Positions 1,020-29,061 of a DNA stretch of 64,000 nucleotides are shown piece by piece. Under the pieces are notes generated by a model. The model did no database searches. It saw only the letters and a list, made by a program, of their open reading frames with translations, and was not told where the DNA came from. Positions within the stretch are counted from its first letter, which is position 1. Each line of letters opens with the position of its first letter. This DNA is from Candidatus Ozemibacter sibiricus (lineage in GTDB: Bacteria > Muiribacteriota > Ozemobacteria > Ozemobacterales > Ozemobacteraceae), in assembly GCA_003327425.1 (NCBI GenBank), contig QOQW01000001.1, positions 248,001-312,000 on the forward strand, given 5' to 3'. A program made the translations under genes and the position numbers.

Positions 1020-1191
1020 CGCCTCTCGCCGCGATGCGCGGGCCTCTGGCCGGGGAGAGGCGGTCGGGGGGCGCGTTGCCAGGAAGTTGGCCGGTTGGCC
1101 ATGGGGTGGATCAGGCCGAGCGGGAAGTCGCCGGGCGAGTCGCGCGAAATCATTCCCGTGGCAGGCCGATGGCGGTAGGGGTCGGCCGCGG

Positions 1192-1220
1192 TTGCCGTTC
1201 GCCGCCGGATCGGCTAATGT
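1192..1220 (+). promoter_or_regulatory. possible sigma70-type promoter of the cyclase gene
   Basis: TTGCCG (1192-1197) and TAATGT (1215-1220) are separated by 17 bases and lie 33 bases upstream of the cyclase ATG. Each hexamer matches consensus only partly. The rest of the 1020-1253 gap holds only a GC-rich inverted repeat (1021-1027 with 1055-1061) without a T tract. Confidence 0.35.
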
Positions 1221-1253
1221 TAAAGAGGGAAGCATACGATTCCTCTCAGAGCC

Positions 1254-3332
1254 ATGGCTGAAGAACAAGAAGCCAAAAAAGGCCTCAAGGCCATTCTGCC
1301 CGACCTCCTGGGCGTGCTCGGGACGGTAGCGGTCGGCGGCGTGGCCTATCTCGTCTTCACCAACAAACTGCCGCAGACCTTCTGGAAGGCCTACAACTAT
1401 TTCTACATCCTGACCATCGTCGGGATCTTCGGCCTCCTCGGCGAAAAGATCGCCATCACGCTGTCGGTCTTCATCGTTCCCCTCCTCCTTGGCGGAGGAG
1501 CGATCATGATGCGCTTGAAGCCTGAGACCTACCCTATCGAGGAATGGTGGGAGGTGTATTCGCTCCTGGTGATCTTCTCCGCCGGGTTGCTGGTATTTCT
1601 CTTCCTCCGATGGGAGCAGACGAAAAAAGCCAAAGCCCTGGAAGCCGAGAGCGGCCAGTTGAAAGCCCGCATCGATCCTGCGGCGGCGGCTCGCTACCGG
1701 CAGGCGCAGGCCGAGAAAGAGAAAGGGGCCGAGATCAAGCTCGAGGGGCTGACCGGGGGCAAACCCGAGAAGAAGCTGAAGAAGAAAGAAGAGCCGGCCC
1801 CTGAGCCGGTCGATCCCAATGAGACCCCCGAACAGCGCATGGAGCGAGAGATGCGCCAGTTGAAAGACGAGTTCAGCAAGAAGTCGATGAAGCTGTCGAC
1901 CACCTTGCTGCGCATGAAGAACCTGACCAAGAGCCTCGATCGCGACGAGATCTTCGCGACGGTCGTCGAGATCATCGCCAAGGGGCTCGACGCCGATCGG
2001 GTGCAGCTCCTGCTGAACGATGAGAAGGAAGGGAAGCTGCGCATCGTGCATGCCGAGGGCATGCCGGCCAAAGAGTATCGCGACATCGTCATCAACCATG
2101 AGGAAAACTGCATCATCACCTTCCTGGCCAAACGGAACACCCGGGAAGAGATCGGGGCAGGCGGTGCCATGGGCATCAAGGAGTGCGAGGTCGACCCCAA
2201 GACTCGCGGTCTGATCGGCCAGGGCACGATCAAAACGATTCTCGCCGCTCCCATCTATGTCGAGGGCAAGGTGTTCGGCGTGGTCAACGTCGAGCGGATG
2301 CGCAATCCCGACTATACCCGCGATGATCAGAACCTGGTCGCCACGTGCGCCGACATCGCCGGTCTGGTCATGAAAAACGCCAAATTGTACTCGGCGACGA
2401 TGGAAGACCTCATTTCGACCAAGAAGCTGAGCGAAGAGCAACTGCGGAAGAACGAAGAGCTGAAGGGCAGCCTGTCGCGCATCGTGTCGCCGAGCGTGGC
2501 CGAAATGATCATGGCCAACCCCGAAGGTCTCAAGCTCGGTGGCAACAAGTGCGAAGTCACCATGTTCTTCTCCGACATCCGCGGGTTCACGAAGATGTCC
2601 GAATCGATGGACCCCTCCGACATCGTCGCCCAGCTCAACGTCTATTTCACGCGCATGACCGACATCCTGATGGAAATGGATGGCACGCTCGACAAATACG
2701 TCGGCGACGAGTTGATGGCCCTGTTCGGGGCGCCGGTGTCGCGGCCCGATGATCCCATTCGCGCCGTGCTGACGGGCGTCAAGATGCTGGAAGCCCTGCG
2801 TGAGCTGCAGGAGATGTGGAAGAAGGAAGGCAAACCGGTCATCCAGATCGGCATCGGCATCAATACCGGCATCGTCACCGCCGGCTACATGGGCTCGGAG
2901 AAGCAGCTCTCCTACACGGTCATCGGCGACAATGTCAACCTGGCCGCCCGCGTCATGGCCAATGCCAAGCCCATGCAGCTGCTGATCACGAAATCGACCT
3001 ACGAGCGCGTGGCCGACTATTTCGACGTCACCCCGCTCGAGCCGATCATGGTCAAGGGCAAATCGATGCCCATCGAGATCTTCCTGGTCAATGGCGTCAA
3101 AGCGGGGGTCGACATCGGGGCGGTGATCGGCAAGAACGTCGGCACCTTCACCACGGTCGGCTCCAGCGGTTCGACCCAGGCCGTGGGTCTGCCGTCCAAC
3201 CTCACCGAAGACCAGAAGAAGGTCAACATCAAGCTCGACGACAAGCCGAAGGTCATCGAGTGCGGCAACTGCGGCACCGAGAACGACAGCCAGACCAAGT
3301 TCTGTCGCAAGTGCGGCATGCCGATCTTCTGA
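1254..3332 (+). CDS. membrane-bound adenylate/guanylate cyclase with GAF domain and C-terminal zinc ribbon
   Basis: The 692-residue protein has three hydrophobic segments in roughly the first 115 residues. A Lys/Glu-rich charged linker follows (about 120-210), then a GAF-like sensor domain (about 210-375), a short coiled coil and a class III nucleotide cyclase domain (about 430-605). The two metal-binding aspartates are present in FFSDIRGFT and KYVGDELMALFG, so it should be active. Lys in LDKYVGDE fits ATP as substrate, which is an inference. The C terminus is a zinc ribbon with CxxC pairs at C670/C673 and C684/C687. Such proteins make cAMP (or cGMP) in response to a ligand bound by GAF or a membrane cue. 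The downstream butyrate kinase gene has its own promoter, so it is probably a separate unit. Confidence 0.9.
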   Translation: MAEEQEAKKGLKAILPDLLGVLGTVAVGGVAYLVFTNKLPQTFWKAYNYFYILTIVGIFGLLGEKIAITLSVFIVPLLLGGGAIMMRLKPETYPIEEWWEVYSLLVIFSAGLLVFLFLRWEQTKKAKALEAESGQLKARIDPAAAARYRQAQAEKEKGAEIKLEGLTGGKPEKKLKKKEEPAPEPVDPNETPEQRMEREMRQLKDEFSKKSMKLSTTLLRMKNLTKSLDRDEIFATVVEIIAKGLDADRVQLLLNDEKEGKLRIVHAEGMPAKEYRDIVINHEENCIITFLAKRNTREEIGAGGAMGIKECEVDPKTRGLIGQGTIKTILAAPIYVEGKVFGVVNVERMRNPDYTRDDQNLVATCADIAGLVMKNAKLYSATMEDLISTKKLSEEQLRKNEELKGSLSRIVSPSVAEMIMANPEGLKLGGNKCEVTMFFSDIRGFTKMSESMDPSDIVAQLNVYFTRMTDILMEMDGTLDKYVGDELMALFGAPVSRPDDPIRAVLTGVKMLEALRELQEMWKKEGKPVIQIGIGINTGIVTAGYMGSEKQLSYTVIGDNVNLAARVMANAKPMQLLITKSTYERVADYFDVTPLEPIMVKGKSMPIEIFLVNGVKAGVDIGAVIGKNVGTFTTVGSSGSTQAVGLPSNLTEDQKKVNIKLDDKPKVIECGNCGTENDSQTKFCRKCGMPIF

Positions 3333-4682: not shown

Positions 4683-5599
4683 GCATTGCCACGTTCGCTG
4701 CCCTGGAACAGAAGGTCCGTGGTCTGCCCCCGGTCGGAGTCGCGGTGGCGGCGGCGGCCGATGCCGAGGTGATCGACAGCCTCAAGGCCGCGCGCGCCCT
4801 GGGATTCATCGGTCGGGTCTTCCTGACCGGCGACGAAGCGGCCATCCGCCGCACCATCGCCGAGGTCGGCGATGAGGCTCATCGCTACGACATCATCAGC
4901 GCCGCCGATGAGGCCAATGCCGCGCGGGCCGCGGTGGCCAAGGTGCGGGAAGGCGCGGCGGGCATCCTGGTGAAAGGGTCCCTCAAGACCGAGGCCTATT
5001 TGAAGGCCATTCTCGATCGGGAGGCCGGCTTGCGGGGTTCGGGGGTGCTGTCGAACATTTCGGTCTTCGAGATGGCCTCCTACCACAAGTTGCTGGGGGT
5101 GACCGACAACGCTGTCATCGTCCAGCCCACCCTCGAGGAGAAGAAGGTGCTCATCGAGAACACCCGGCCCGTCTGGCGGGCCCTGGAGATCGAGCGACCC
5201 AAGGTGGCGGTGCTGGCCGCGGTCGAGACGGTCTCGCCCAAGATGCCGGCGACGCTCGAGGCGGCGGCGCTGGTCGTCATGAGCCAACGGGGCCAGATCA
5301 AAGGGTTCGTCGTCGATGGCCCGCTCGGGTATGACGCTGCCATCAACCGGGCGGCCGCCGAACACAAGGGGCTGGGTGGGTCGCCGGTGGCGGGCGACCC
5401 CGATCTCATTCTCTGCCCGAATCTGGAAACGGCCAACTCGCTCGGCAAAAGCTTCAAATTCCATGGCCAGGCCACCTGGGGCGGGTTGGTCCTGGGGGCG
5501 GCGGTACCGGCCGTCTTGAATTCGCGGTCCGATGACCGGCAGAACCGGTTGAACTCCCTGTGTCTGGCCCGCGCCATGTGCCCCGGCCCGGATCGTTGA
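4679..5599 (+). CDS. ptb: phosphate butyryltransferase (phosphate acyltransferase family)
   Basis: The enzyme transfers the acyl group of butyryl-CoA, or of branched-chain acyl-CoA, to phosphate, supplying the substrate of Buk. The 306-residue length is typical of Ptb. The fold signature is visible as AVAAAADAEVIDSLKAA near the start and GPLGYDAAINRAAAEHKG, then a C-terminal NLETANSLGKSF segment shared with phosphate acetyl/butyryltransferases. It starts in a 4-nt overlap with buk, with GAGGAG a few bases upstream. The order buk-ptb followed by an oxoacid oxidoreductase resembles the ptb/buk genes of bkd-type branched-chain 2-oxoacid clusters. Substrate chain length cannot be read from the sequence. 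Confidence 0.92.
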   Translation: MSIATFAALEQKVRGLPPVGVAVAAAADAEVIDSLKAARALGFIGRVFLTGDEAAIRRTIAEVGDEAHRYDIISAADEANAARAAVAKVREGAAGILVKGSLKTEAYLKAILDREAGLRGSGVLSNISVFEMASYHKLLGVTDNAVIVQPTLEEKKVLIENTRPVWRALEIERPKVAVLAAVETVSPKMPATLEAAALVVMSQRGQIKGFVVDGPLGYDAAINRAAAEHKGLGGSPVAGDPDLILCPNLETANSLGKSFKFHGQATWGGLVLGAAVPAVLNSRSDDRQNRLNSLCLARAMCPGPDR

Positions 5600-5703
5600 C
5601 CCTCGTTCTTCCTCATCCCTCCATTTCTCTGTCCGTTTCAGCAACCAGTCACTTTTGAGCCACTCCTTCATTCACACTTCATTTCACCGCAAGAGGAACC
5701 GCT

Positions 5704-6819
5704 ATGACACACTCCCCTCGGGTCGCTCTCATCGATGGATCGCGGCTCATCATCGAGGCCCTCGTTCAGAGCGGGGCCGACACGTTCATCGGGTATCCCA
5801 TCACGCCGTCCAACCTGCTGTTCCAGTATGCGAGCGAGCGCTTCCCCCGGATGCTGGGGGCGCCTGACGAGATCACCACCCTGCAATGGATGAGCGGGGC
5901 CGCCGCCACCGGGTTGCTGACCGTGACGGCCACCTCTTTTCCTGGGTTCGCCTTGATGGTCGAATCGATCAACATGGCGTTCATGATGGAACTGCCCATG
6001 GTCATCATCCTGGCGCAGCGGCTGGGGCCGGCGACCGGTACGGCCACCACGGGCGCGCAAGGCGATCTGGCCCTGGTCCGGGGGATGATCTCGGGCGGCT
6101 TTCCGGTGCCGACCCTCTGCATTTCGAGCCTGCCAGACTGCTGGGATCTGTCGCACGAAGCCTTGCGGGTGGCCGTCTCGCTGCGGACGCCGGTGATCCT
6201 GCTGACGTCGAAGGAAATGATCATGACCATGCAGGATTTCGATCTGGCGACCTTGAAACCCCTTTCTCCCATCAAGATTCCCTTGTACAAAGGGGAAGGG
6301 CCGTATCTCCCCTATGCCCCCGATGAGCGGGGCGTGCCGCCGTTCCTGCCGTTGGGCAACCCGCACCACCAGGTGCGCATGACGGCCTCCACCCACGATG
6401 CCACGGGGTTGATCCAGGCCGGGACGCCCGAAGCGCTGGGCAATTCGACCCGGCTGCATCGCAAGATCGTCCGCAATCTGCCGGATTACACCTGGCTGGA
6501 ACTCGACGAGCAACCGGACGCCCGCCGCCTCGTCGTGGCCTACGACGTCACGGCGGGCGCCGCCCGGGAAGCGGTTCGGCGGTTGCGCGAGCAAGGCCAT
6601 CGGGTTTCGCTCCTGGTCGTCAAAACGCTGTTCCCCACGCCGCCGCAGATCTTCGAGGTCATCGACCGCTACGAGCGGGTGGTGTTCCCGGAAGAGAACC
6701 TGACCGGGCAGTTCGTCGAACACCTGTTCGGACAGCGGATTCCGAGCCGAATCCGGTCGGTGCATTCGTTCGGGGCCATGATTCCGCCCGCGGCCATCAT
6801 GCAGGAGGTGATCGCATGA
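5704..6819 (+). CDS. 2-oxoacid:ferredoxin oxidoreductase, alpha subunit
   Basis: The 371-residue protein belongs to the pyruvate/2-oxoacid:ferredoxin oxidoreductase alpha family (KorA/VorA-like). Its N-terminal half carries the pyrimidine-binding module (FIGYPITPSNLLFQY, then TTLQWMSGAAATGLLTVTATSFPG). A C-terminal transketolase-C-like module ends in VVFPEENLTGQF. It should pair with the next product to oxidise a 2-oxoacid with CoA to acyl-CoA, CO2 and reduced ferredoxin. AAGAGGAA lies 5 bases before the ATG, and the stop overlaps the next start (ATGA). Neighbouring ptb and buk point to branched-chain or 2-oxobutyrate-type substrates rather than pyruvate, which is inference. The 104-base gap before it is pyrimidine-rich, with no clear terminator or promoter. 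Confidence 0.88.
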   Translation: MTHSPRVALIDGSRLIIEALVQSGADTFIGYPITPSNLLFQYASERFPRMLGAPDEITTLQWMSGAAATGLLTVTATSFPGFALMVESINMAFMMELPMVIILAQRLGPATGTATTGAQGDLALVRGMISGGFPVPTLCISSLPDCWDLSHEALRVAVSLRTPVILLTSKEMIMTMQDFDLATLKPLSPIKIPLYKGEGPYLPYAPDERGVPPFLPLGNPHHQVRMTASTHDATGLIQAGTPEALGNSTRLHRKIVRNLPDYTWLELDEQPDARRLVVAYDVTAGAAREAVRRLREQGHRVSLLVVKTLFPTPPQIFEVIDRYERVVFPEENLTGQFVEHLFGQRIPSRIRSVHSFGAMIPPAAIMQEVIA

Positions 6820-8138
6820 GCACTCCCGATACCGTCGTCCAAGCCCCTCCCGCCTCCGATACTGCGCCTGCCTTCCTGCGCACCGACCATCTGCCTTTCT
6901 GCAAGGGCTGCGGTCACAACATCGTGGCCATCAATACGGAAAAGGCGTTGCACAAAGTGGCCGGCCTGTCGCCGCTCGATGTGGTGGTGGTGAGCGATAT
7001 CGGGTGTATCGGCATCATCGATCAGCAGTACGCATCGCACACCATCCATGGCCTGCATGGCCGTTCGACCGCGCTGGGCGTCGGCGTTTCCCTGGGCGTT
7101 CACCCTCCCGGCAAGAAGATCCTCGTCTACATCGGCGATGGCGGGGCGACCATCGGTCTGCCGCACATTCTCGAGGCAGCTGACCGGAACGTCGACATGA
7201 CGGTTCTGGTGCACAACAACATGCTGTATGGCATGACCGGCGGGCAGCCCAGCGGCCTGACGCCCGTCGGCTTCAAGACGGCCTCGACCCCTGACGGCAA
7301 GATCACGCCGGGCTTCGATCTGTGCCGGCTGGCGCATGTGGCCGGGGCCATCCGGGTGCAGCGCCTGATCGGGATCGGCGATTTCTCGGATGACCTGGCC
7401 GAAGCCTTCCGTACCCCCGGGTTCTCTCTGGTGGAGATCATCGAGATCTGTCCATCCTATGGGGTGAAGTACAACCCGGGTCGCAAACCGGCTGATATCG
7501 CCCGGGAAAACGGGTTCGAACCGGTGGTCCTCACCAATCCGCCGCGCCCGATCCACTCGCGGCCCGCCCGCCTCGATCGCCCCTCCCTCCTGAATGACGA
7601 TCTGGTCGTCCCCCATCGGGATGTATCGAACCTGCCGCGGAAATACTCCATCATCCTGGCAGGATCGGCCGGCGAAGGCGTCCAGGCGGCGGGCGAACTG
7701 CTGGCCGAGGCGGGCATCGCCTGCGGCTTGTCGGTGACGAAGAAGGGCAGCTATCCCGTGACGGTCGGGGTCGGCTTCTCGCTGATCGAGGTCAACCTCA
7801 AGAACCGTCCGATCAACTACACGGGCATCGAAACCCCTGACGCCATCGTCATCACCTCGCTGGATGGACTGCGCAAGGTCGAATCCCAGATCCGGACCAT
7901 GCAATCGGGCGTCCTGCTCATCGATGCCAGCCTGCCCAAACCGGCCAGCCCGGGCGTGGTCGTCATCTCGGCCGATCTCCGCACGCCGATGGGGACCCGG
8001 AATGTCTCCCTCTACAGTCTGGGGTTGCTGCTGGCCAAGACCTCGTTGTTGCCCCTGTCGGCCTACCTCGATGCCATCCGGCACCGGTTCGGCGACAAGG
8101 TCGACCTGGCCAGGCTGCAGGCCCTGCTGACCACCTGA
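6816..8138 (+). CDS. 2-oxoacid:ferredoxin oxidoreductase, fused beta-gamma subunit
   Basis: Residues 1 to about 255 are the thiamine-diphosphate-binding beta subunit. The motif FCKGCGH (C29, C32), a third cysteine in SDIGC and a fourth in EICPSYG match the four ligands of the proximal [4Fe-4S] cluster. The ThDP motif runs from GDGGATIG to NNMLYGMTGG. Residues from about 280 (YSIILAGSAGEGVQAAG) to the end form the gamma domain. The linker between them is Pro/Arg-rich. Beta-gamma fusions exist but are less common than separate subunits. No ferredoxin-like delta subunit is encoded nearby, so a free ferredoxin probably accepts the electrons. The gene overlaps alpha by 4 bases and has GGAGGTG before the ATG. 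Confidence 0.88.
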   Translation: MSTPDTVVQAPPASDTAPAFLRTDHLPFCKGCGHNIVAINTEKALHKVAGLSPLDVVVVSDIGCIGIIDQQYASHTIHGLHGRSTALGVGVSLGVHPPGKKILVYIGDGGATIGLPHILEAADRNVDMTVLVHNNMLYGMTGGQPSGLTPVGFKTASTPDGKITPGFDLCRLAHVAGAIRVQRLIGIGDFSDDLAEAFRTPGFSLVEIIEICPSYGVKYNPGRKPADIARENGFEPVVLTNPPRPIHSRPARLDRPSLLNDDLVVPHRDVSNLPRKYSIILAGSAGEGVQAAGELLAEAGIACGLSVTKKGSYPVTVGVGFSLIEVNLKNRPINYTGIETPDAIVITSLDGLRKVESQIRTMQSGVLLIDASLPKPASPGVVVISADLRTPMGTRNVSLYSLGLLLAKTSLLPLSAYLDAIRHRFGDKVDLARLQALLTT

Positions 8139-24090: not shown

Positions 24091-24924
24091 TTGCCACGAA
24101 TCACCTCCTCTTCTTGCGAGGCTGTCCGCGGGTTTCTCGCTCTGAGCCTGTGCGGGCTGCTGTTCGTGCTGCTGGTGCCCCGCGCGCTCTGGGCCGAGAA
24201 GAACCTCTTGCCCCGCCTGCCTGAGGTGGTGATCGAAAAGGGGCATTCCGATTCGTTCGAAGTGGTCGATTGCCAGGCCACGAGTCAGGTGGTGGGCGAG
24301 GAAGCCAGGACCTCGCTGAAGGTCATTCTGAAGAATGTCAGCGCCAGCCCCGTGGCAAGCTCTCTCAAGATCCGCGCCTTGTATCTGCTGGGCGATCATG
24401 GGGCATCGCTCTCGATCAATGGCAAGCCGATGCGCTTCGATCGCCGGAACCCGCGGTTCGCTTTCGCCCTGGAGCCCGGCCAGGAACTGACCGTGGCCCT
24501 GGAGGCCCGCCAGAACATCCTGTACAATCTCGATGCTCTCAAGAAGGAAGAGGAAGAAGATCGGCGCTCCCCTTCGCCCGGCAGGTCGGTGCAGAGCGCG
24601 TTCGACGGCCTGAAACGGTTCTTCGGCAAGGAGAACTTTGGCCGGCGCTACATGGTCGGGCCGCTGGTCTCGAAATGGGGCATCTTCCCTGTTCCCTTCC
24701 GGCGCGTTCGGCTGGAGATCACGGTGCCTCGCGATTTCGAAGGGGTCCTGCCGGCCGATTCCCCCTGGAAGCGCCAGGAACGCGGAGCATCGCAGGTGTT
24801 CACCTTCGAGGGCACCGAAGGATTCAGCGGCGCCGTCTTCCTGCCGCGACAGGATGCGGCGGCCTTCCGCAAGCTCCAGGAAGCCGCCTTTCCCGCTTCT
24901 CCGTCGGCGCGGCTGTGCCGCTGA
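24091..24924 (+). CDS. secreted protein of unknown function
   Basis: The TTG at 24091 is taken as start because AGGAGG lies five bases before it and the promoter lies just upstream; the open frame from 23836 would start before the promoter. The product (277 aa) has a signal peptide, about residues 1-30 (FLALSLCGLLFVLLVPRALWAE). A beta-rich domain follows (SLKVILKNVSASPVASSLKIRALYLL), then a charged Lys/Glu loop with KKEEEEDRRS and a second beta-rich region. It resembles an immunoglobulin-like or adhesion-type periplasmic protein, but I recognise no family. It stands alone on this strand and converges on murJ. Confidence 0.75.
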   Translation: MPRITSSSCEAVRGFLALSLCGLLFVLLVPRALWAEKNLLPRLPEVVIEKGHSDSFEVVDCQATSQVVGEEARTSLKVILKNVSASPVASSLKIRALYLLGDHGASLSINGKPMRFDRRNPRFAFALEPGQELTVALEARQNILYNLDALKKEEEEDRRSPSPGRSVQSAFDGLKRFFGKENFGRRYMVGPLVSKWGIFPVPFRRVRLEITVPRDFEGVLPADSPWKRQERGASQVFTFEGTEGFSGAVFLPRQDAAAFRKLQEAAFPASPSARLCR

Positions 24925-25092: not shown

Positions 25093-26631
25093 TCAGTCCT
25101 GGCTGGGTGGCGCCGGCGAGCTTGGCGGTTCGGAAGCCACCCCCTCGCGGTCCTGGGCCCAGAAGGGCCAGACCAGAAGGGCCGTCGCGCTCTGCAACCC
25201 GCCCCACCACCCGGTCAGCAGGGCCAGGAGCGCCCATTTGTCCGACCAGCCGATCCAGGCGGTCAGGGCGGGAAACGCCGCCGCCTGCGGGCCGGCCGCC
25301 AGCAGACTGACCAGCAGGCCGGCCGCGGCCGGCACCAGCGCTCCGCTCCAGTCGCCGATGCCGCCGCTCCACCACAGCCCCGCGAACAGCAGGAACATCT
25401 GGATGTTGGCGGCCCAGGCCGCTCCCCAGCCCACGCTGGGCGGGCCCCATCGGGGAACCATCCAGGTGTCCAGGCCGATCTGCAGGATGATGGCGGTCAG
25501 GCCGGCCACGAAGGGGAAGCGGAAGCTGCCGCTGGCGAACAGCGCCCGGTTGAGCAGCAGGCAGATCGAGGTCGGCAGCAGCCACCACGCATAGGCCCGG
25601 AAGAAGGCGGCGGTCAGGTCGGTCTCGGCCAGGGCGAATCGCCCGCGCTGGTAGACGGTGGCGACGATGGTCGCGCTGCCCGCCTGGATGGTCAGGAAGA
25701 TCGGCAGCAGCAGGGCGGTCAGCGCCCAGATGCCCCGCCGCAGCAGACGCGGCCGCTCCTCGGGGCGGATCTCGCTGAGATTCGGAAACAGGACCGTGGC
25801 CAGGCTGATCGAGATGATGCCCAGGGGCAGATTCAGCAGCTTCTCGTTGTAGTTGAGGATGGTGACCGAACCGACGGCCTCCGACGATAGCAGATAACGT
25901 TCATAGACCGGTACGATGGGGGTCAGGAACAGCCACAGGGCGACGGGCGCCACCTGTTCGGCGAATTCGCGCATCAGGGGGAACGACAGGTGGCGCCGAT
26001 CGAACGCCTGCGCGAGGCTCACGCCATGCGCCCGAACCAGCCAGCCGAGCCAGGCCATCTGCAGGAGCGCCCCCAGAGTCACCGACAGGGCGATGGCTTC
26101 GAGGTTGCCGCCCCGGGTGCCGAGAATGGCCGCGATGATCGTCAGGTTGACCAACAAGGGGCCCAGGCCCGGCGGGCCGAACACCTGTCGCGCGTTGAGG
26201 AAGGCGGTCATGACCGCAGTCTGGGCCGACAGCAGCACATAGGGGGCGATCAGACGCCACAATCTGGCCAGCGTTCCGAGCCGCTCGGCAGAGAACCCCG
26301 GCACCAGGGCCGCGCATAGTGGTTCGGCCCAGATCGCCAGGATGGCGGTCGCCACCCCCGCTGCCGCCGAGACCGTCCAGAAGATGCTCCAGAAGGTCGT
26401 TCGCTCGCGATCCGGGGCGCCTCGCTGGCGCACGAACAGGGGAATGGCGGCGCTGGCCACCAACCCCTCGCTGAGGAAGCGATACATCAGCTCCGGGACC
26501 AGCAGCGCCGTCAAGAAGACGTCCGATTCCGGGCCTCGTCCGAAGAACGACGCGAAGACGGCCACCCGGATGAAGCCGCTGAACCGCGACAGCAGGGTCA
26601 GGAAGGCCAGCAGGCCGAAGGCTCGTCTCAT
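25093..26631 (-). CDS. murJ: lipid II flippase MurJ (MviN family)
   Basis: The 512-residue polytopic membrane protein has about 14 helices. The family start LTLLSRFSGFIRVAVFASFFG is followed by ESDVFLTALLVPELMYRFLSEG; the Arg and Asp/Glu residues of the central cavity are typical. It moves lipid II across the inner membrane for peptidoglycan synthesis, so the organism makes a murein wall. The gene follows the small Cys-rich peptide gene, separated by a strong hairpin, so it may have its own promoter or rely on readthrough. GGGAG lies some 14 bases before the ATG. The C terminus is Pro/Ser-rich. Confidence 0.93.
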   Translation of the reverse strand: MRRAFGLLAFLTLLSRFSGFIRVAVFASFFGRGPESDVFLTALLVPELMYRFLSEGLVASAAIPLFVRQRGAPDRERTTFWSIFWTVSAAAGVATAILAIWAEPLCAALVPGFSAERLGTLARLWRLIAPYVLLSAQTAVMTAFLNARQVFGPPGLGPLLVNLTIIAAILGTRGGNLEAIALSVTLGALLQMAWLGWLVRAHGVSLAQAFDRRHLSFPLMREFAEQVAPVALWLFLTPIVPVYERYLLSSEAVGSVTILNYNEKLLNLPLGIISISLATVLFPNLSEIRPEERPRLLRRGIWALTALLLPIFLTIQAGSATIVATVYQRGRFALAETDLTAAFFRAYAWWLLPTSICLLLNRALFASGSFRFPFVAGLTAIILQIGLDTWMVPRWGPPSVGWGAAWAANIQMFLLFAGLWWSGGIGDWSGALVPAAAGLLVSLLAAGPQAAAFPALTAWIGWSDKWALLALLTGWWGGLQSATALLVWPFWAQDREGVASEPPSSPAPPSQD

Positions 26632-26663
26632 CGCCGTCGCCCAGAATCTCCCTGAAATGGAAA

Positions 26664-26685
26664 GGCCCCGGCCGAAGCCGGGGCC
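26664..26685 (-). terminator. GC-rich hairpin terminator after the Cys/Gly peptide gene
   Basis: On the minus strand a perfect 9-bp stem GGCCCCGGC/GCCGGGGCC encloses a TTCG tetraloop and is followed by TTTCC. It starts 13 bases after the stop of the small peptide gene and ends before the murJ start. The T run is short, so termination may be partial. Confidence 0.65.
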
Positions 26686-26698
26686 GTCAGTTCAACGT

Positions 26699-26926
26699 TC
26701 AGTGTCCGTTCGGGGGGCACCCGCCACCGCCGCAGCCACCACCGTCGCCACCGCAGCCGTCATCGTTGGGATCGCACTTGTGACCGCCGCAGTCGCCATT
26801 CCCGCAGCCGCCGCCATTGCCGCCGCCGCAGCCATCGCCGCAGCCGTCAGGATCGCAGGCCAACACGGGCGAGGCCACGAAGCCGACCGCCAGAACCAGA
26901 ACCAGAGCAACCATCCAGAGCTTCAT
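26699..26926 (-). CDS. small secreted Cys/Gly-rich peptide
   Basis: The 75-residue product has a clear signal sequence (KLWMVALVLVLAVGFVASPVLA) and a mature part of about 52 residues starting at C24. It contains nine cysteines and is otherwise mostly Gly, Asp and Asn, with the repeat-like units CDPDGCGDGC and CDPNDDGCGG. Cleavage after A23 by signal peptidase I, or lipid attachment at C24, are both possible (VLAC is a weak lipobox). GGAGG lies upstream of the ATG, a promoter lies about 60 bases away and a hairpin follows, so it looks like a real, separately expressed gene. It could be a metal-binding, disulfide-rich or modified peptide; I know no family. Confidence 0.7.
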   Translation of the reverse strand: MKLWMVALVLVLAVGFVASPVLACDPDGCGDGCGGGNGGGCGNGDCGGHKCDPNDDGCGGDGGGCGGGGCPPNGH

Positions 26927-26987
26927 TCTTACATTCCTCCATACTTATTGTGCCCCCCTTGGGGCCTGGGTGGTTGGGACACTTGTA

Positions 26988-27016
26988 CGATAGCATACCG
27001 TTCTTCCAAAGGTCAA
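26988..27016 (-). promoter_or_regulatory. probable promoter of the Cys/Gly peptide gene
   Basis: On the minus strand TTGACC (27016-27011), 17 bases, then TATCGT (26993-26988). The -35 matches consensus at 5 of 6 positions and the -10 at 4. The leader to the ATG at 26926 is about 55 bases, AT-richer than its surroundings. The rest of 27017-27188 shows no gene. Confidence 0.45.
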
Positions 27017-27188
27017 TGCCTGCCAACGACGCCTCGCGAACCCACTTCCCGAACCCCTTGCCCGACCCCTGACGCCCCTTGCCGCTCATCCTGCTTCGAC
27101 CACAGGGAGGAAATGGCCGCAGGGCGGCGCCTCCCTGGCCCGCTCCAGGCGAACGCGGCTGGGGCCTCCTGGTGGCGAAGCCTCTCGA

Positions 27189-27599
27189 TCACCCCCCGCT
27201 GGCACCCATGAGGCTGATCACCAGACGGCGCGTGCGCGGACCATCGAACTCGCACAGGTAGATGCCCTGCCAGGTGCCCAGCACCAGATCGCCGTTGGCG
27301 ACGATGAACGGATGGCAACTGCCGAATAGGCTCGATTTGAGATGGGCGTGGCTGTTGCCCTCGCCATGCTGGTCGGCCGGGTCGTTGGTAGGGAAGGCCG
27401 CTTCCAGGCGGCGCAGCAGGTCGGAGACCACCGACGGGTCGGCGTTCTCATTGACGGTCAGGGCGGCGGTGGTGTGCGGCACCGAGACCAGCACATGGCC
27501 CTCCTTCAGCCCGGCCGCCTTGACCGCCTTGCGCACCAGGGCGGTGACATCGACGAACGCCTGCGGGGCCGGGGTGCGAACGGTTTCTTCCCTCAGCAT
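27189..27599 (-). CDS. YjbQ/UPF0047 family protein
   Basis: The 136-residue protein has the hallmark residues of the YjbQ fold: SVPHTTAALTVNENADPSV, the HGEGNSHAHLKSSLFG segment with its histidines, and the end GTWQGIYLCEFDGPR. Some members have weak thiamine phosphate synthase activity; the physiological role remains unclear. It starts one base after the GH13 gene stop with GGAGG upstream, so it is the last gene of an M28 peptidase-GH13-YjbQ transcript. The conserved His and Glu residues look intact. Confidence 0.92.
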   Translation of the reverse strand: MLREETVRTPAPQAFVDVTALVRKAVKAAGLKEGHVLVSVPHTTAALTVNENADPSVVSDLLRRLEAAFPTNDPADQHGEGNSHAHLKSSLFGSCHPFIVANGDLVLGTWQGIYLCEFDGPRTRRLVISLMGASGG

Positions 27600-27600
27600 C

Positions 27601-29061
27601 TCATTCCTCCGGGGTGAAGAGAATGGCGGCCTGCCCGGGCCCGAGCGCCAGCTCGGGGCCGAAGGTCTTCGGCAGGGGGCCGCGCCGACCGGCCGGGGTC
27701 AGCTCGTAGATCTGCCGGGCCTCCCGCAGGCGCTTGGGGAGCCGGAAAAAGGCCGGCTTCGCGGGGTCGGTGTTGACCGCGACCAGCAGATGCCGCCGGC
27801 CGCTGGTGCGCACGTAGCCGCGGCAGCCGGTCTGGCCGCGCCGCCACTCGCCGAAGGGCAGCAGCACCCCCTCGCTGCAGAACAGCGGGTCGGCGGCCTT
27901 CATCTGCAGCACCCGGGCCATGGTGCCCGGCAGATCGGAATCGATGCCCTTGGCGAAATCGGCCGGCCCCGAGGTCAGCACGTCGACCTTGGCCAGCAGG
28001 CCGCGCTCCGCCCCGGCCACGAACATCAGATCGGTCGATTGGAAGGCCGCCAGGATGAATTCCAGCTCCATCAGTCGCACCACCCGGGCCCGCTCCTCGG
28101 CCGACAGCTGCGCGAGCGAGGTGAGGCCGTCGCGCTCGATCACCTGCCGGTGCAAGGCCTTGTCGGACAGATGGCCCAGGCGGGGCGCCTGCACGGTGGC
28201 CAGCGCCTTCAGCGCCGGCATCAAGGTGTCATGGCTGGCGAAGATGGCGCAGGACGGCTTGCCTCCCGATTGCTTGTGGAAGCGGTAGATGTCCGCGGGA
28301 ATGCCCCGTCCTCCGCTGTACCAGTACATGTTGTGGAAATACCGCTCGGCGCCTGCCGCGATGCCTGACCGCGCCAGGTTGATCAGCTTGTCCATGCCGA
28401 GGTTCTCGGCCAGAAACCAGACGTGGGGATGGCGCGCCTTGGTCTCGCGCACCAGCCGGGCCAGTCCGTTGGGATCGAGGCCCCAGGCGGCGTCGATCCG
28501 GATGGCGTTGACGTGGTACTGACCGACGTGCGGGAAGATGACCCGCTCGAGCCAGTAGTCGATCAAGGCAGGGTTGGCGTTGTCCAGGATGAAGGCGCCC
28601 CAGTTGACCCGGATGCGGTTGCCGTCGGCGTCGACATCGTCGGCGCCCGCTTCCTTCCCGCCGGTGGGCGCTTCGATGAACCACTCGCGGCGCAGGTGCT
28701 CGGCCTGCCAGTCGGCATGGTTGAACGGGATGTCGATCATGCGATCGAGGCCCTGGGCCGCGACGAACCGCATGAACGCGGCGAAGCGCTCCCATGACCC
28801 GAACAGCCGGCAGGGCCGTTCGTAGTCCTTGACGACATATTCCGAAAAGCTCGGCAGGAAGTGCGGCAGCAGCAGCAGCACGTTGACGCCGAGCTGGCGC
28901 AACGTGCCGACATAGGCTTCCAGGTCCTCCGCGGTGGCGAAATACCGGTGCGGCACGTCGGCGTAGATCCGGCCCTGCCGCTCCGGCGGCAGCGGCGTCA
29001 ACGGAACCGGAGCCTGGTCGGCGAGGAACGAAACGAACAGGGGAAGCGGTGTGGTGTTCAT
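27601..29061 (-). CDS. GH13 alpha-amylase-superfamily protein
   Basis: A (beta/alpha)8 barrel of the alpha-amylase clan with the three catalytic acids in place: nucleophile D190 in IRIDAAW, acid/base E219 in FLAENLG and D278 in ASHDT. The N-terminal part has LGVNVLLLLPHFLPSFS and DIPFNHADW, as in the first conserved region. The end is a small beta domain (HLLVAVNTDPAKPAFFRLP). There is no signal peptide, so it acts in the cytosol, probably on maltooligosaccharides or glycogen. It may be a GlgE-like transferase or a hydrolase; the exact activity cannot be told. It overlaps the peptidase gene by 4 bases (ATGA). A glycogen-debranching-like enzyme lies at 40-42 kb. Confidence 0.85.
   Translation of the reverse strand: MNTTPLPLFVSFLADQAPVPLTPLPPERQGRIYADVPHRYFATAEDLEAYVGTLRQLGVNVLLLLPHFLPSFSEYVVKDYERPCRLFGSWERFAAFMRFVAAQGLDRMIDIPFNHADWQAEHLRREWFIEAPTGGKEAGADDVDADGNRIRVNWGAFILDNANPALIDYWLERVIFPHVGQYHVNAIRIDAAWGLDPNGLARLVRETKARHPHVWFLAENLGMDKLINLARSGIAAGAERYFHNMYWYSGGRGIPADIYRFHKQSGGKPSCAIFASHDTLMPALKALATVQAPRLGHLSDKALHRQVIERDGLTSLAQLSAEERARVVRLMELEFILAAFQSTDLMFVAGAERGLLAKVDVLTSGPADFAKGIDSDLPGTMARVLQMKAADPLFCSEGVLLPFGEWRRGQTGCRGYVRTSGRRHLLVAVNTDPAKPAFFRLPKRLREARQIYELTPAGRRGPLPKTFGPELALGPGQAAILFTPEE

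Follow-up and report, generated by a model that had tools for sequence, protein, structure and literature searches.

The bacterial metallothioneins SmtA/BmtA/PmtA and MymT are not known to carry a Sec signal and have a Pfam family of their own. The peptide described here shares with them a tiny size, a high cysteine content, His beside Cys and the lack of a hydrophobic core. In contrast to them, it bears a Sec-type signal, predicted in 12/12 rows of its family alignment, and has no Pfam match. A metallothionein family was not among the Pfam matches of ten members, and this failure of the profile match, taken with the export signal, places the peptide outside the metallothionein family, although it may perhaps work like one of its members. 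PmtA is reported at the surface of bacteria in excerpts of one paper (PMC11237414). Among Cys-rich structural proteins linked by disulfides, CdeC, as it appears in excerpts of another paper (PMC12453122), resembles the peptide in being a Cys-rich protein of an anaerobe; CdeC, however, is a protein of C. difficile spores, whereas the peptide is short and exported.

We analysed a window of 64,000 nucleotides from Candidatus Ozemibacter sibiricus, in which an initial annotation had marked a secreted Cys/Gly/Asp peptide of an unlisted type. That description agrees with the predicted signal, the composition and our searches of family libraries. The window protein matched nothing in Pfam or NCBIfam at E up to 10, the peptide profile had no match in the PDB, and PHROGs gave nothing better than E 0.13. 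When ten members were compared with Pfam, DUF2946 (PF11162) matched five weakly (best E 0.018), which might reflect the signal peptide alone, the defensin-like PF25052 matched two weakly (best E 0.0064), and two single weak matches made up the rest. By these profile comparisons the family is without an accepted match in Pfam, NCBIfam, PHROGs or PDB. Literature searches on Riflebacteria/Ozemobacter, small secreted Cys/Gly-rich proteins, sheath peptides, oxidative folding and secreted or periplasmic metallothioneins brought up no paper whose title or abstract deals with the peptide. It is a small, lineage-restricted and unnamed new family, although the kind of object is itself known.

A conserved gene for a small exported peptide

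The open reading frame at 26699-26926 had been annotated without a strand, and we placed it on the minus strand (Table 1). With the window protein alone as query, both other genomes of the genus matched (E 3.3e-20 and 2.1e-23), as did further genera of Ozemobacteraceae. Profile A1, at E up to 1e-3, picked up relatives in 11 of the phylum's 39 genomes, each of them in Ozemobacteraceae; ten of these matches were in the profile, which makes their scores partly circular, and the remaining one, in genome G011 (E 5e-11), was independent. G007, at E 0.017, was taken in after its signal and composition had been read, and profile A3, with G007 and G011 added, matched 12/24 family genomes. In G010 the contig end cuts off all but the final 20 codons of a relative, which lie just 5' of murJ and are followed by the same type of terminator. 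Counting this fragment, relatives are found in 13 of the 24 genomes of Ozemobacteraceae (Ca. Riflebacteria), at one copy per genome, and a profile search found none in the phylum's 15 remaining genomes. Lack of conservation in close relatives is one part of what would, by the initial annotation, have counted against its peptide, and conservation was found.

When 84,980 species genomes were scanned, six loci came up, every one of them in Riflebacteria and already known to us (G001, G002, G005, G016, G021 and G022). Among 381 genomes searched, seven outside the family gave matches (E 1.1e-6 to 8.4e-4); on reading, those in G218, G161, G297, G352 and G131 proved to be other proteins, namely proteins with Asp runs, exported proteins rich in His/Lys/Asn or in Gln/Gly, and a lipoprotein, the other two matching genomes being G083 and G349. 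The surroundings of murJ and/or the PpiD-like gene in those 12 family genomes that lack a full match yielded, apart from the G010 tail, no further small exported Cys-rich member. A first scan of these surroundings had missed the G010 tail, which was cut by the contig end and was found by eye, and its sole frame was an unlikely one of 172 aa in G011; a stricter scan recovered 11/11 known members. A viral gene was rejected, there being no relative among IMG/VR contigs.

The peptide gene is a real, conserved protein-coding gene, and purifying selection acts on its product. By the Nei-Gojobori method, dN/dS was 0.09-0.29 in those seven pairs, out of eight, that had a measurable dS, the eighth being saturated for dS, and for the mature part alone it was 0.18-0.33 in six pairs, with two saturated; dN was higher for the mature residues than for those of the signal. 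Conservation and dN/dS together exclude a chance open reading frame. An overlapping plus-strand frame of 289 aa (26342-27211) is not the gene, since it is broken in several relatives in which the minus-strand frame stays open.

Table 1. Coordinates of the peptide gene, its predicted signals and its neighbours in the window, and of palindromes in locus L064 of G011
Feature	Position	Strand	Basis
Peptide CDS, 75 aa + stop	26699..26926	minus	ORF listing and purifying selection
Signal peptide, Sec-type, residues 1-23 (predicted)	26858..26926	minus	Conserved residues, AlphaFold helix; cleavage site inferred
Mature peptide, residues 24-75, nine Cys (predicted)	26702..26857	minus	Composition; pLDDT <50 from residue 21
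Sigma-70-like promoter TTGACC-18-TATCGT, TG before second hexamer (predicted)	26987..27016	minus	Motif score against shuffles
Leader element ATAAGTATGGAGG, including Shine-Dalgarno GGAGG (26936-26940)	26936..26948	minus	Pattern search
Intrinsic terminator between peptide gene and murJ (predicted)	26664..26685	minus	Perfect 9-bp all-GC hairpin and T-rich tail
murJ (lipid II flippase), downstream neighbour	25093..26631	minus	PF03023, 201 bits
UPF0047 (YjbQ-like), upstream neighbour	27189..27599	minus	PF01894, 130.7 bits
Palindromes TTAG[AG]N4[TC]CTAA	L064 6845, 6899, 6962, 10673		Pattern search

Cleavage is predicted after ASPVLA, leaving a mature peptide that begins with Cys and has exactly 52 residues and nine cysteines, where about 52 and nine had been annotated. 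It is 46% Gly and 23% Asp+Asn, has two His and a net charge of about -7, and contains neither aliphatic nor aromatic residues. The Gly/Asp/Asn-rich repeats of the initial annotation hold as a description of composition, but not as a strict repeat unit, the only tandem repeats in the gene being short low-copy Gly/Cys-codon units. Throughout the family the signal follows the layout MK-(hydrophobic)-A-x-P-x-x-A/C, where the slash marks the predicted cleavage site, and A18, P20, A23, C24 and C41 are invariant in 12/12 rows of alignment A3. We describe the peptide as exported on the strength of its predicted signal, and it may reside in the periplasm or outside the cell. Another exported protein, at 1060-1659 (minus) of L050 (G017:C23), has a similar signal and a mature start of SGCGSAGCQDG, and is otherwise unrelated.

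The 11 complete members have mature parts of 48-57 aa with 0-7 His and 12-33% Asp+Asn. They contain 0-2 aliphatic or aromatic residues in every case, which indicates that there is no hydrophobic core. Their cysteines number 5, 6, 6, 6, 6, 8, 8, 8, 8, 9 and 9, even in eight members, which are not independent of one another, and odd in three; Cys-x-Cys and Cys-x2-Cys pairs are few and the spacing is mostly wider. Mature parts are acidic (-4 to -16) in 10/11, the exception being the roughly neutral one of G011 (+1). Members from genera g4 and g8 end in GGC-x3-C-P-I or a near variant of it. AlphaFold2, given 12 sequences, produced a model of mean pLDDT 50.9 with a helix at residues 2-18 and pLDDT <50 at residues 21-75; it thus predicts no separate fold for the mature part.

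Transcription signals and genomic surroundings

The initial annotation had also assigned the gene its own promoter, ribosome site and hairpin terminator, and predicted counterparts of all three were identified. One promoter-like site was found against a shuffle mean of 0.0, its score being equalled in 0.5% of 200 shuffles, and for 7/12 members the promoter score was matched by <5% of shuffles. The GGAGG lies at -14 relative to the start codon. The pattern ATAAGTN{2,3}GGAGG, searched for in six genomes, occurred as a single copy in G000, G002, G009 and G012, always just 5' of the peptide gene, and was absent from G001 and G017, whose leaders are slightly different. The reversed string, used as control, matched 1 to 6 times per genome. 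Found solely at this gene, the leader string is thus a property of the peptide gene and not the general ribosome site of the clade. Folding of the 5' leader surpassed 95% of shuffles in just one of nine members (G001), which argues against a conserved leader structure. The score of the terminator was reached in 0/60 shuffles, and a comparable hairpin was present in 10 of the 11 members with readable downstream DNA. Taken as predictions, these signals delimit a transcription unit of the peptide gene's own between the UPF0047 gene and murJ. The promoter-like site, the Shine-Dalgarno sequence and the terminator are all strong, which suggests that the gene is highly expressed. An RNA element was rejected: two Rfam matches fell far under their gathering scores, one of them being the terminator hairpin.

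In the window, the UPF0047 gene, the peptide gene and murJ share one strand. Eleven of the 13 genomes keep one setting, with murJ and/or a PpiD/SurA-like gene beside the peptide gene. It lies directly 5' of murJ on the same strand in G000, G001, G002, G009, G010 and G016, and is divergent from the PpiD/SurA-like gene, which encodes three rotamase domains, in G005, G009, G012, G016, G017, G021 and G022. In G003 and G004 murJ adjoins the PpiD-like gene and the peptide gene is missing, having thus been gained or lost there. The neighbours in G007 are dUTPase and dapB genes. Genus g4 (G005, G012, G017 and G021) has no close copy of the murJ that adjoins the peptide gene in other genera; the search there gave a distant paralogue only (E ~1e-21), and in G012 none at E 1e-20. 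Two other conserved neighbours in the window, at 27601-29061 (minus) and 24136-24924 (plus), have no Pfam match at E 1e-3, the latter coding for an exported protein and staying close to the peptide gene in genera g1, g4 and g8.

The locus in G011 (L064) has a setting of a different kind. A small secreted ORF (6624-6824), the peptide gene and a gene for a secreted 267-aa protein (5369-6172, minus) follow one another on one strand. A divergent gene starting ~530 bp upstream of the peptide encodes a heavy-metal P-type ATPase with an HMA domain and a CPC motif, which scored 531 bits against TIGR01511 (copper-translocating ATPase; cut-off 397). The 267-aa protein has a long His-rich and Cys-rich tail and no accepted family. 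Like the G011 peptide it is exported, Cys-rich and encoded on the same strand by the adjoining gene; it differs in its length, in the hint of a thioredoxin-like fold in its N-terminal part (PF13848, E 0.057) and in its restriction to G011, as none was found elsewhere in the 24 family genomes searched. The 16-kb stretch also contains four TTAG[AG]N4[TC]CTAA palindromes against 0.11 expected, three in the gap that separates the ATPase gene from the small ORF and the fourth just 5' of DUF3793 and flavodoxin genes. The palindrome was absent from two other 4-kb stretches of G011 and from the stretches of 11 other members, the window included. We take palindromes of this type to be associated with DtxR/MntR-type metal regulators, and the four may perhaps be sites of one such putative regulator. 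The G011 peptide itself is devoid of His and lacks the acidity of the other members.

Proposed metal binding and rival readings

We propose, at somewhat under even chances, that the peptide is an exported metallothionein-like chelator that binds metal outside the cytoplasm. The gene would yield an abundant, Sec-exported and intrinsically disordered peptide that shares no sequence relation with the named metallothioneins, and the side chains of its Cys, His and Asp would hold metal ions beyond the cytoplasm. We infer that the gene is highly expressed, that signal peptidase I cleaves the product, that its thiols stay reduced in an anoxic periplasm and that its function is to bind metal. Metals are indicated by the Asp and His beside Cys, by the lack of a core and by the G011 setting, from which one relative copper or a similar soft metal would be our first guess. 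Against a chelator, a metal neighbourhood occurs in just 1/13 genomes, the palindromes are missing from the stretches of 11 other members, the G011 peptide is without His or acidity, the number of cysteines varies from 5 to 9, and Cys-x-Cys and Cys-x2-Cys pairs are few. The even Cys number in 8/11 members points the other way, to disulfides.

The disulfide meshwork that the initial annotation had offered as one of three functional guesses draws on that same even number, and is weakened by the enzymes that the genomes lack. DsbB and VKOR are the two standard enzymes feeding disulfide formation. Neither was found in any of the 24 family genomes, whereas the same searches were positive in 6/14 and 3/14 controls, respectively, and this absence argues against a catalysed mesh, although it leaves room for another oxidant. 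Excerpts of PMC12453122 state that obligate anaerobes tend to keep cysteines out of exported proteins, and that in some anaerobes a small number of disulfide proteins are folded all the same with no regenerating partner, the latter being a caveat to the argument from DsbB and VKOR. Given the former tendency and the lack of both enzymes, a Cys share of 10-17% in an exported peptide is unusual, and a use for the thiols themselves would best account for such a content in such an organism. In its fullest form the disulfide reading, which we consider unlikely, would have a structural or adhesive peptide cross-linked after export to form a matrix, a sheath or a layer on the cell surface. The Gly-rich and Cys-rich composition, the strong expression signals and the divergent gene for a PpiD/SurA-like envelope chaperone in seven genomes would all suit such a peptide, but its repeats are not expanded, its length is nearly constant (48-57 aa) and three of the 11 members have an odd Cys count.

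Free thiols might also serve as an extracytoplasmic buffer or oxidant scavenger that guards an anaerobe against oxygen or electrophiles. The Riflebacteria of the peptide family presumably live mostly without oxygen. The many thiols, their unfixed spacing and the lack of a predicted fold are consistent with a buffer, and excerpts of PMC7509429 place Riflebacteria in deep aquifer water. A buffer would have no need of the Asp and His that are retained beside Cys, however, and no redox partner was recognised among the scanned neighbours, so we hold this role to be quite improbable. That C24 is lipidated, tethering a Gly/Asp/Cys tail to the membrane as a surface lipoprotein, is a very unlikely reading: a Cys does stand right after the predicted cleavage site in 12/12 members, but neither a strict lipobox nor the closing part of the PROSITE lipoprotein pattern fits any of the 12, the small residue-x-Ala suits signal peptidase I, and textbook lipoboxes occur elsewhere in the clade (LAGC in L003 and LTGC in L064). 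We give the least credence to a secreted antimicrobial or signalling peptide. Its small size, its export, the faster change of the mature part than of the signal (dN) and the two of ten members that touch PF25052 (best E 0.0064) would agree with one, whereas 10/11 members are acidic and nearly without hydrophobic residues, no immunity, export or maturation gene was seen among the scanned neighbours, and a single copy per genome is held under purifying selection. The modified peptide of the initial annotation found no support, and a RiPP was rejected, since a Sec signal is present and the neighbours scanned in the window and the relatives include no maturation enzyme.

Of the three functional guesses, metal binding is the one that fits best. 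The exported chelator may further stand for a class of its own, confined to this lineage, in which bacteria without DsbB or VKOR would export metallothionein-like, disordered and thiol-rich chelators that stay reduced and keep soft metals in the envelope or beyond the cell, a possibility that we regard as doubtful. Were such a class real, it would do outside the cytoplasm what known metallothioneins do for the most part within cells. The gene is a clean case of a real small gene missing from the searched profile libraries, and such genes are easily lost by composition-biased searches. If the peptide does bind metal, it would show metal handling outside the cytoplasm in an uncultured phylum, by means of free thiols, which would not survive in an oxidising periplasm.
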